Below, piece after piece: positions 1,926 through 34,328 of a DNA stretch of 34,328 nt. Each line of letters opens with the position of its first letter. The stretch's first letter is position 1. The stretch comes from Wenzhouxiangella sp. GTDB lineage: Bacteria; Pseudomonadota; Gammaproteobacteria; Xanthomonadales; Wenzhouxiangellaceae. Location: NCBI GenBank assembly GCA_007135355.1, contig SLJA01000002.1:1-34328 (forward strand), in the 5' to 3' direction. The notes under the pieces are model-generated. The model was not told the origin of the DNA. It saw only the letters and a list, made by a program, of their open reading frames with translations, and searched no databases. Position numbers and translations under genes: made by a program.

Positions 1926-2092
1926 CTAGGAGCCTGCGCGGCAGAAGCCGTCCGGACTGCAACGGCGCGCTCGCCATTGAGTGCGTCTATCGTTGAGCTT
2001 ACATAGGTCAACTATGCGCGCTCCCCGATAGGCACACTCAATGGCGATTGCATCCGTTTCGCCTCGAACGTTTCTGCCGCGCAGGCTCCTAG
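1926..2092. repeat. MITE-like / long imperfect palindromic element
   Basis: Terminal arms CTAGGAGCCTGCGCGGCAGAA (1926-1946) and TTCTGCCGCGCAGGCTCCTAG (2072-2092) are perfect 21-bp reverse complements. An internal arm CGCCATTGAGTGCGTCTATCG pairs with CGATAGGCACACTCAATGGCG at the same register with no gaps. No ORF inside is convincing. Confidence 0.8.
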
Positions 2093-2152
2093 GCTGTACC
2101 ATGAAAGAATGAGCACGGGGCGGTGCAGCCATGCGCCCAACTGAGGGGTCCG

Positions 2153-3904
2153 ATGACGGGTTTGAAGCCGGCAGCGCTGGTGGTTCTGGCCAGTTGCCTG
2201 ATTTGTGCGAACTGGGCTTTGGCCCGTTCCACTCCGGCCTTGAGTGAATTGCTCGAGGAAATCAGGTACATCAGTTACACACGCCACTGGCAAGAGGCAC
2301 AGGCCAGGTTGGACGAATTGGCCGCTCGAGTCGAACAGGCCGGACAGCGCGACCAAGTCGAGTTCCATCTGCTCGAAGCCCGCCATCTCATTCTTGCTGA
2401 CCAATCGCATGTGGCGCTTGAACGCCTGGCCAGTTTGCTGGAGCTTGATTTACCTGATGATCAGCGCTTGAGAGTTCTCCAGCTCAGCGCCAACGTCAGT
2501 GTCTTGCTGCGGCTGTATGAGCGCGGATTTGAATATCTGGGCGAGGCGCTCTCTCTGGCGGTAGACCCTGGTGCACCTGAACCAAGGATGGCAACACTCA
2601 ACTTGGCCAGTTACATGCTGGGCCGGGTCGGTGAAGTCGATCGCGGCATCGAGTATGGCGAGTCCGCGCTGGCGATGGCCGAGGCTACCGGCAATCAGGC
2701 TGAGCAGTGCGTTGCCCTGCAGCGTCTGGCGCCAGTGTACAAATGGGCCGATCGTTTGGATCGAGCCGAGCAGCTTTATCGTAAAGGGATTTCTATCTGC
2801 GAAGGTTTGGGCAATCAGCTATTCGCCGGGGTGATGTCCCATGGTTTGGCAGACCTTCTGCGTCAGCAGGGACGTCTGGACGAGGCCGAGCAGCTGGCGA
2901 CTGTAGCGGTTGAATTGCTGCAACGGGCCGTTTATCCCCTTGGTGAGTTCGAGGCGCGCCTGGTGCTGGCGGAAATCAAGGCAGATGCGGGAACGCTGAG
3001 CGATCTGGATGCGGCAGAGCTGGAGCGCCTGGACGATTATTTCGCGACTGACAACCTTTGGGATCAGGCCGCTCGTGTTTACGGCCTGCGTGCCCGCCTG
3101 GCGGAGCAGGCTGATCAACCGTATGCCGCAATTGCATTTCTGCGTGACCAGCAGCGGGCGCGCGAAGCATTTCTTGGACGGGAGCGCGCCATGCGGCTGG
3201 CTTTTTTGCAGGTCGAGTTCGACACCCGTTTGCAAGCGCAAGAGCTGGCGCTGGTGCGCCAGTCGGCCAGGGCCTCGGAGTTGGAAGCTCAAACCTTGGC
3301 ACAGCAGACCCAGCTGCGCGGTCTGATCATTTTCGTGATTGCGCTGCTCACGGTGGGCTTGTTGCTGCTGTTGTTGCGAGCCCAGCGAAGCCGTCGCCAT
3401 TTCCGCAATATTTCGCGCCAGGATCAGTTGAGCGGGCTGTTCAATCACAGCTGGTTTTTCCAGCGTGCGCAAATCTTGCTGGACCAGGCGGACGCAGCGC
3501 CTGGCTGCCTGGCACTGGTTGCCGCTGATATTGATCGCTTCAAGCGCATCAACGACTTGCACGGACATCGGGTCGGTGATGAAGTGCTAGGTCGCACCGC
3601 CAGACGCCTGCGCGAGGTGTTTCCCGAACACGCGCTGATCGGCCGCATTGGCGGCGAGGAGTTTGCCGTGCTGGTGCGGGCCGCCGATATCAGGGAAGTG
3701 GTGGACTGCGTCGAAGCCTTCAGGGACTCGCAACAGCATGTTCTGCGGTTGGGCGATCCCGAAGTGACCGTCAGTTTTGGTCTGAGCTGCTATCAGCCCG
3801 GCGACGACATCGAGGCGCTGCGCGAGCGTGCTGACCGTGCTTTGTACCAGGCCAAGCGCGATGGCCGCGACTGCTATCGCTTGGATGCGAGTTGCCGCGA
3901 TTAG
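2153..3904 (+). CDS. Diguanylate cyclase: signal peptide, periplasmic TPR-like repeats, TM helix, GGDEF (GGEEF) domain
   Basis: ORF 2123..3904; start 2153 gives the signal peptide MTGLKPAALVVLASCLICANWALA. Helical TPR-like repeats, TM segment LIIFVIALLTVGLLLLLLRAQ, then GGDEF with DIDRFKRIND and RIGGEEFAVL. Confidence 0.9.
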   Translation: MTGLKPAALVVLASCLICANWALARSTPALSELLEEIRYISYTRHWQEAQARLDELAARVEQAGQRDQVEFHLLEARHLILADQSHVALERLASLLELDLPDDQRLRVLQLSANVSVLLRLYERGFEYLGEALSLAVDPGAPEPRMATLNLASYMLGRVGEVDRGIEYGESALAMAEATGNQAEQCVALQRLAPVYKWADRLDRAEQLYRKGISICEGLGNQLFAGVMSHGLADLLRQQGRLDEAEQLATVAVELLQRAVYPLGEFEARLVLAEIKADAGTLSDLDAAELERLDDYFATDNLWDQAARVYGLRARLAEQADQPYAAIAFLRDQQRAREAFLGRERAMRLAFLQVEFDTRLQAQELALVRQSARASELEAQTLAQQTQLRGLIIFVIALLTVGLLLLLLRAQRSRRHFRNISRQDQLSGLFNHSWFFQRAQILLDQADAAPGCLALVAADIDRFKRINDLHGHRVGDEVLGRTARRLREVFPEHALIGRIGGEEFAVLVRAADIREVVDCVEAFRDSQQHVLRLGDPEVTVSFGLSCYQPGDDIEALRERADRALYQAKRDGRDCYRLDASCRD

Positions 3905-10596: not shown

Positions 10597-10723
10597 AACC
10601 GCAGATGAACGCGGATGAAAAGAAGGGCGTCTGCACCAGGGCGTCAACGTAGACAGCGGACATCAGCGGCTCGCTGGGGTCTTCAGTAGCTTTATCTGCG
10701 TTTATCCGCGTTCATCTGCGGTT
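10597..10723. repeat. Inverted repeat built of ~10-bp GCRGATGAAC-like units in a convergent intergenic region
   Basis: AACCGCAGATGAACGCGGAT (10597-10616) is a perfect reverse complement of ATCCGCGTTCATCTGCGGTT (10704-10723). The right arm extends to three decamers: TTTATCTGCG TTTATCCGCG TTCATCTGCG (10691-10720). Confidence 0.85.
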
Positions 10724-33804: not shown

Positions 33805-34328
33805 ATGTTGGAGGGGATCGCAGGCGTTGTGATTGGACTGATGGTCGGCGCAACAGTGCTTTGGCTGTGGATGGACCGGAAAGCCGGCAGTCCGGAAGAA
33901 GTGGAAAAGCTCAAGAAGGAAAATGAGCGTTTCCGCGAGGAAGTCAACGTGCATTTCGTGCAGACCGCAGAGCTGATCAATCAGTTGACCGATAGTTACA
34001 AGGCCGTGTTTGATCATCTCAGTGAGGGAGCGGAGAAGCTGGTCGAGCCTGAGGTGGTGCGCGAGCGCATGCCGCAAGTCACCGACGAGGAAGTCCGGCT
34101 CAAGCGAATTGGCGCACCGCGACCGGTCGACGTCGAGGAGAACGTCAATGCCGCGCCCGAGCAAGAGCCCGAGGCGGAGCAGGCGCCAGAGCCAGAGCAG
34201 GGCTCCAAGTCGGAGCAGGAGTCCGAGCCAGAGCAGGAGTCCAAGCCGGAGCAGGAGTCCAAGCCGGAGCAAGAGTCCAAGCCGGAGCAAGAGTCCAAGC
34301 CGGAGCAGGAGTCCAAGCCGGAGCAGGA
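33805..34328 (+). CDS. YhcB/ZapG-like (DUF1043) N-terminally anchored protein, 3' truncated by window edge
   Basis: Read manually because it has no stop in the window: MLEGIAGVVIGLMVGATVLWLWMDRKAGSPEEVEKLKKENERFREEVNVHFVQTAELINQLTDSYKAVFDHLSEGAEKL, then a Glu/Gln/Ser/Lys/Pro repeat tail. Confidence 0.82.
   Translation, partial: MLEGIAGVVIGLMVGATVLWLWMDRKAGSPEEVEKLKKENERFREEVNVHFVQTAELINQLTDSYKAVFDHLSEGAEKLVEPEVVRERMPQVTDEEVRLKRIGAPRPVDVEENVNAAPEQEPEAEQAPEPEQGSKSEQESEPEQESKPEQESKPEQESKPEQESKPEQESKPEQ
34195..34328 (+). repeat. 18-bp in-frame tandem repeat (EQESKP)n, continuing past the window end
   Basis: Consensus GAGCAGGAGTCCAAGCCG; seven complete units (34195-34320), five of them differing only at one CAG/CAA position, plus a partial eighth. 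Confidence 0.95.

Follow-up and report, generated by a model that had tools for sequence, protein, structure and literature searches.

The 34 328-bp window of Wenzhouxiangella sp. analysed here, that is, the whole stretch of DNA whose first lines stand above, carries a long palindrome between two co-directional genes, typA (64–1902) and a GGDEF gene (2123–3904), the gene names being taken from the initial annotation of the window and from position. Is this palindrome a signal that belongs to the locus, or an element that arrived there? The initial annotation named a MITE, a REP-like element and an attenuator as candidate origins and held that one copy could not decide between them. With copies from other genomes the choice can now be made, and it falls on the MITE: the palindrome is, with high confidence, one copy of an IS1182-type MITE.

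The palindrome and its fold

The element occupies 1926–2092 (167 bp, counting a CTAG at each end) and starts 23 nt past the typA stop codon. Its coordinates and perfect 21-bp terminal inverted repeats had been given exactly in the initial annotation. The sequence of the repeats is CTAGGAGCCTGCGCGGCAGAA; the A end (1926–1946, plus strand), consisting of CTAG and GGAGCCTGCGCGGCAGAA, is matched perfectly by the B end (2072–2092, minus strand). The arms had been described as ungapped, about 67 bp long and separated by a loop of about 30 nt. They do stay in register without gaps, but they are 81 nt each (1926–2006 and 2012–2092), 73% complementary, and enclose a loop of just 5 nt. Among the inverted repeats listed for the window, this one is the longest. 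The element contains no ORF of at least 90 aa, in agreement with the earlier view that none was worth calling, and the overlaps at its edges are long mechanical antisense ORFs only.

The palindrome is genuine and much stronger than chance would give. As RNA, the segment 1916–2102 has a minimum free energy of −115.5 kcal/mol, compared with −66.6 ± 4.4 kcal/mol for 200 dinucleotide shuffles, none of which was as low (z = −11.2); the strong hairpin expected on transcription is thus confirmed. Over 1926–2092, the minus strand, on which the B end comes first ('B-first'), forms the more stable fold (−123.6 versus −110.9 kcal/mol), and it is this fold that is conserved among the copies described below.

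Dispersed copies in many genomes

The host genome (2.33 Mb in 356 contigs, 84% complete) contains one full copy and two end fragments of about 30 nt. Other genera of the order have full copies as well. When one end was searched for exactly, at least 120 DNA stretches contained it and, among the end matches listed, most came from Acidobacteria, Gammaproteobacteria and Betaproteobacteria. The length was 166–169 bp in 46 of 70 paired-end entries, which include a few overlapping combinations from a nested Massilia site, and the flanks were unrelated. Up to 188 ends were counted per genome (in one Acidobacteria genome), while a reversed control pattern gave zero in 18 of 18 genomes.

A covariance model built from a first alignment of 36 copies matched 28 of 151 relatives at E ≤ 0.001 and 55 of 274 genomes of a class-wide gammaproteobacterial sample at E ≤ 1e-10; match counts per genome are rough, as one palindrome may count on both strands and the counts are bounded by the number of candidates scored. 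Twenty copies taken from different genomes of the 274-genome sample all started with CTAG and all had the inner motifs, and nearly all ended with CTAG. A search of a plasmid collection with the element gave no match. Nothing in the window reached the gathering score of an Rfam family, and related copies gave only weak, chance-level Rfam matches.

The element has the short length (167 bp), the perfect 21-bp ends and the lack of an internal gene that define a MITE, together with multiple dispersed copies in unrelated flanks, of which its own incomplete genome holds one full copy.

An intergenic, palindromic and repeated sequence could also be REP-like, with a REP-associated tyrosine transposase (RAYT) as its mover. 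REP elements share these properties with the present element, but their size is given as 20–40 bp (PMC3733652), and at 167 bp the present element falls outside that range. REP elements also lack 21-bp terminal repeats combined with a CTAG duplication. Its perfect ends, its 4-bp duplication and the occurrence of the same ends on IS1182-family elements (see below) make a REP-like origin the most improbable of the alternatives considered here.

Insertion duplicates a CTAG target

CTAG is rare in the window: base composition predicts 118 occurrences and 13 are present, so chance is an unlikely source of two flanking CTAGs. The initial annotation had suggested that the outermost CTAG could be a target-site duplication, and this was borne out by a nested insertion. 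In Massilia aquatica (L046) one copy lies within another, exactly at the CTAG in the loop of the outer copy. Removal of 164 bp leaves a sequence identical at 168 of 168 positions to an intact copy (L085) and reduces two CTAGs to one. Because excision of the nested copy restores L085 with a single CTAG, insertion duplicates the 4-bp CTAG, and the CTAGs at 1926–1929 and 2089–2092 are accordingly the left and right copies of the duplication in the window.

Other insertions indicate what kind of site is used. One element with the same ends and a different interior (L098) is inserted at the CTAG that forms the tip of an unrelated palindrome 124 nt long. In addition, by our own simple gene calling, the element's own CTAG supplies the TAG stop codon at 21 gene ends adjoining 104 copies in four genomes. 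The target at L098 2888–3123 is itself a near-perfect palindrome (ends CGCGCCTTGTCAGG, centre CCGGGCTAGCCCGG; symmetry at 114 of 124 positions) and possibly belongs to another mobile hairpin family.

The window locus was compared with that of congeners. Four of them (G017, G002, G005 and G013) have typA followed by a GGDEF homologue (53–56% identity), and in all four the element is missing between these genes; most other congeners have different sequence downstream of typA. The empty-site comparison proposed earlier thus succeeds at the level of the missing element, and not at the level of a base-exact site with a single CTAG, as the congeners' intergenic regions are too diverged to align by eye. 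Taken with L046 and L085, the element is associated with both a target-site duplication and empty sites, the latter without base-level alignment in the four congeners. A single copy conserved at this locus had been named as the observation that would argue against mobility; the host genome does hold only one full copy besides the two end fragments, and conservation at the locus was not found.

These comparisons bear on the idea that the palindrome acts specifically at this locus, between typA and the GGDEF gene, as an RNA attenuator, a terminator or a hairpin that stabilises mRNA. Its position between co-directional genes and the strong fold that it would adopt if transcribed are what such a signal would show, and some congeners have a terminator-like inverted repeat past typA, as judged by eye. 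However, the sequence is absent from the same locus in the four congeners with the same flanking genes, is dispersed at unrelated loci elsewhere, and shows no orientation bias with respect to neighbouring genes (42 versus 47, among 104 copies of four other genomes), so a role in host mRNA is unsupported. An intrinsic terminator or attenuator would combine a GC stem with a T run and be conserved at its locus; no T run follows 2092. We regard a locus-specific signal as very improbable. The inverted repeat of the congeners (L159, L160, L161 and L163) is GC-rich and lies just past typA; the window lacks it, and the element sits at about its position.

IS1182-family elements share the ends

Elements of about 1.55 kb were found between the same ends at two loci, L115 in Variovorax sp. 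WS11 and L129 in a Burkholderiaceae MAG. The L115 transposase belongs to the IS1182 family (NF033551, 365 bits with a cut-off of 270; Pfam DDE_Tnp_1 and DUF772), and both ORFs of L129 match NF033551. The transposase with matching ends that the initial annotation had proposed to look for does therefore exist, in other genomes. Variovorax WS11 has several copies of the insertion sequence in different flanks, with CTAG adjoining each; the hairpin ends are common to autonomous IS1182-family elements at L115, at L129 and at further Variovorax sites. The ends CTAGGAGGCTGTCCGAGAA and CTAGGAGCGTGGGCGGCAGAA occur on other IS1182 elements, and hairpins with like ends exist. L115 resembles the hairpin in its 21-bp ends and in the CTAG on both sides, and ISPse1, an IS1182 member, resembles it in making 4-bp duplications (PMC3281130); the autonomous elements differ in their length of about 1.55 kb, their transposase gene and their unrelated interior.

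There was no NF033551 match in the host genome (G000) or in congeners G012 and G028, and a search of the 151 relatives with the Variovorax transposase found none in the genus and three more distant matches elsewhere. Several hairpin-rich genomes (e.g. G154, G157 and G160) lacked a matching transposase, and Variovorax WS11 gave no hairpin match; these assemblies are incomplete, and repeats are often missing from them. The putative mover is assigned by shared ends and shared target rather than by co-residence.

The following route would account for these observations. An autonomous insertion sequence carrying the same 21-bp ends would provide an IS1182-family transposase in trans, and this enzyme would recognise the terminal inverted repeats and insert the unit of about 160 bp at a CTAG, leaving CTAG on each side. 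Within this route, the CTAG duplication was seen directly in the nested insertion, while the transposase step is suggested by the shared ends and CTAG flanks. Targets would include CTAGs at palindrome tips and CTAGs containing TAG stop codons, and most insertions would therefore be intergenic. The window insertion would have landed 23 nt past the typA stop. As the searches of the host genome and of its congeners gave no matching transposase, this copy is probably dormant; it is an ordinary insertion of an IS1182-type MITE. The earlier label 'MITE-like' thus stands, given the dispersal in many genomes, the absence from the locus in four congeners, the duplicated CTAG and the IS1182-family ends.

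The interior is conserved as a hairpin across phyla

MITE interiors are usually expected to drift after gene loss. We aligned 36 copies on the B-first strand (the minus strand of the window) and counted 47 base pairs, with 93.7% of cells paired and 30 pairs changed on both sides; none of 500 shuffles scored as high on any measure. In a broader set of 32 copies from several end classes, 55 of 61 pairs were changed on both sides and 90.6% of cells were paired, and pairing fell to 36–48% when partner columns were slid by one to three positions. In the window, the apical stem-loop of this fold (2002–2016, minus strand) is CATAG, a 5-nt loop and CTATG, corresponding to helix 5 of the covariation count, in which every pair has changes on both sides. 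Two subterminal motifs are also kept across lineages in both alignments (A1 and A2): CTGC at the A end (1957–1960, plus strand; the GCAG columns) and AGGCGAAA at the B end (2057–2064, minus strand).

This hairpin does not follow from the ends alone, because elements with the same ends and other interiors (L037, L063, L076, L080, L098, L100, L118 and L145) range from 116 to 207 bp. That the same length and a hairpin of one strand are kept across two phyla is unusual for a MITE, and had not been foreseen in the initial annotation. While the window copy is ordinary, the family is less so, for across phyla and end classes it conserves an interior with a strand-specific fold.

Several variants were noted alongside the family. 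In five of the elements above, from Thermoanaerobaculum (L037, L063, L076, L118 and L145), the interiors of both arms are GGACA-type repeats. Elements of 274–275 bp with the same 21-bp ends, in Rubrivivax and Piscinibacter (L102 803–1077, L105 4824–5098 and L055 6804–7077), have a different two-armed interior that is extremely stable (down to −255 kcal/mol). Variants of 184 and 197 bp in Granulosicoccaceae (L070, L081, L096, L101, L110, L138 and L149) apparently share the hairpin and carry additional sequence at its centre.

One strand's fold is favoured

The B-first strand was the more stable in all 47 copies compared, including L118, the orientation of which is arbitrary because its interior is unrelated. 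The same was true of 32 of 33 lineages, two of which had an unclear motif and were oriented by energy itself, and of all 20 additional copies, which were oriented by the model. On the B-first strand, mismatches were G.U in 159 cases and A.C in 73; as the lineages are related, a nominal p-value for this difference overstates the case. Such a preference could be expected from selection on the folded strand, or from a strand-biased mutation spectrum.

Correction of quasi-palindromes is known in bacteria, and the palindrome might likewise be kept by arm-to-arm correction during replication (template switching) rather than by selection on the fold. Correction would yield changes that look compensatory. 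It predicts no strand preference, however, whereas the preference for one strand is nearly universal, and conserved loops where the arms do not match (GCGA facing GCA) stay uncorrected across lineages. We consider arm correction unlikely, though less so than the locus-specific signal or the REP-like origin; a strand-biased mutation spectrum added to it could account for the preference.

We favour selection on the folded form. The preserved length and the hairpin of mainly one strand would then serve the life cycle of the element itself, either as an RNA of its own or, while the element moves, as single-stranded DNA, a reading much less certain than the assignment as a MITE. Bias with respect to the replication strand was weak and did not hold consistently, at 56:36 in the pooled data (p = 0.047) and 15:16 in G157. 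A broader proposal can be made tentatively, and we hold it to be possible, if somewhat more doubtful than not: the copies may form an undescribed superfamily of mobile hairpins of about 165 bp, found in Gamma- and Betaproteobacteria and Acidobacteriota with several end classes, in which the fold of one strand (RNA or single-stranded DNA) is selected, and which would travel as an IS1182-type MITE and act beyond carrying its ends.

Comparison with known repeats

A literature search for the end sequences found no paper on the repeat, the one relevant string match being a Geobacter PCR primer, and no paper was found that combined IS1182, CTAG and intergenic repeats. The closest precedent is on record for ISMac2, an IS1182-family element of Methanosarcina acetivorans (Kamoun et al. 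2013, PMC3852290). That source describes one MITE of 160 bp (14 copies, 26-bp inverted repeats, 4-bp duplication) and a second of 169 bp (seven copies, 25-bp inverted repeats). By description, these are like the present element in being non-autonomous, of similar size and partnered by an IS1182-family element; they differ in their archaeal host and in that a conserved one-strand fold is not reported in the section consulted.

The Bacillus cereus repeats include MITE-like bcr1–bcr3 and bcr10 and bcr18, which have conserved RNA structure (PMC3446304, PMC6542083). Like the present family they are intergenic; some resemble MITEs and others have a conserved secondary structure, and bcr1 has a high copy number. 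However, bcr1 is described as confined to the B. cereus group, as having TTTAT motifs and as possibly involving site-specific recombination (PMC3446304, PMC6542083), whereas the present family spans phyla, targets CTAG and has IS1182-type ends, a distinction drawn from the descriptions.

As both interior length and a strand-specific fold are preserved, one may ask directly whether a selected RNA or single-stranded DNA is part of some MITEs. In practical terms, a repeat present in about one-fifth of the gammaproteobacterial genomes sampled can be annotated with the covariance model and the end patterns.

Other repeats in the window

A second, unrelated palindromic repeat of 127 bp with 23-bp arms (AACCGCAGATGAACGCGGATGAA) lies at 10597–10723. 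Its ends occur at no fewer than 36 places in the host genome and at 24–37 in several congeners, marking a high-copy family of the genus. At 34119–34328, at least eight tandem 18-bp units of the GAGCAGGAGTCCAAGCCG type run up to the end of the window and are probably a coding repeat.
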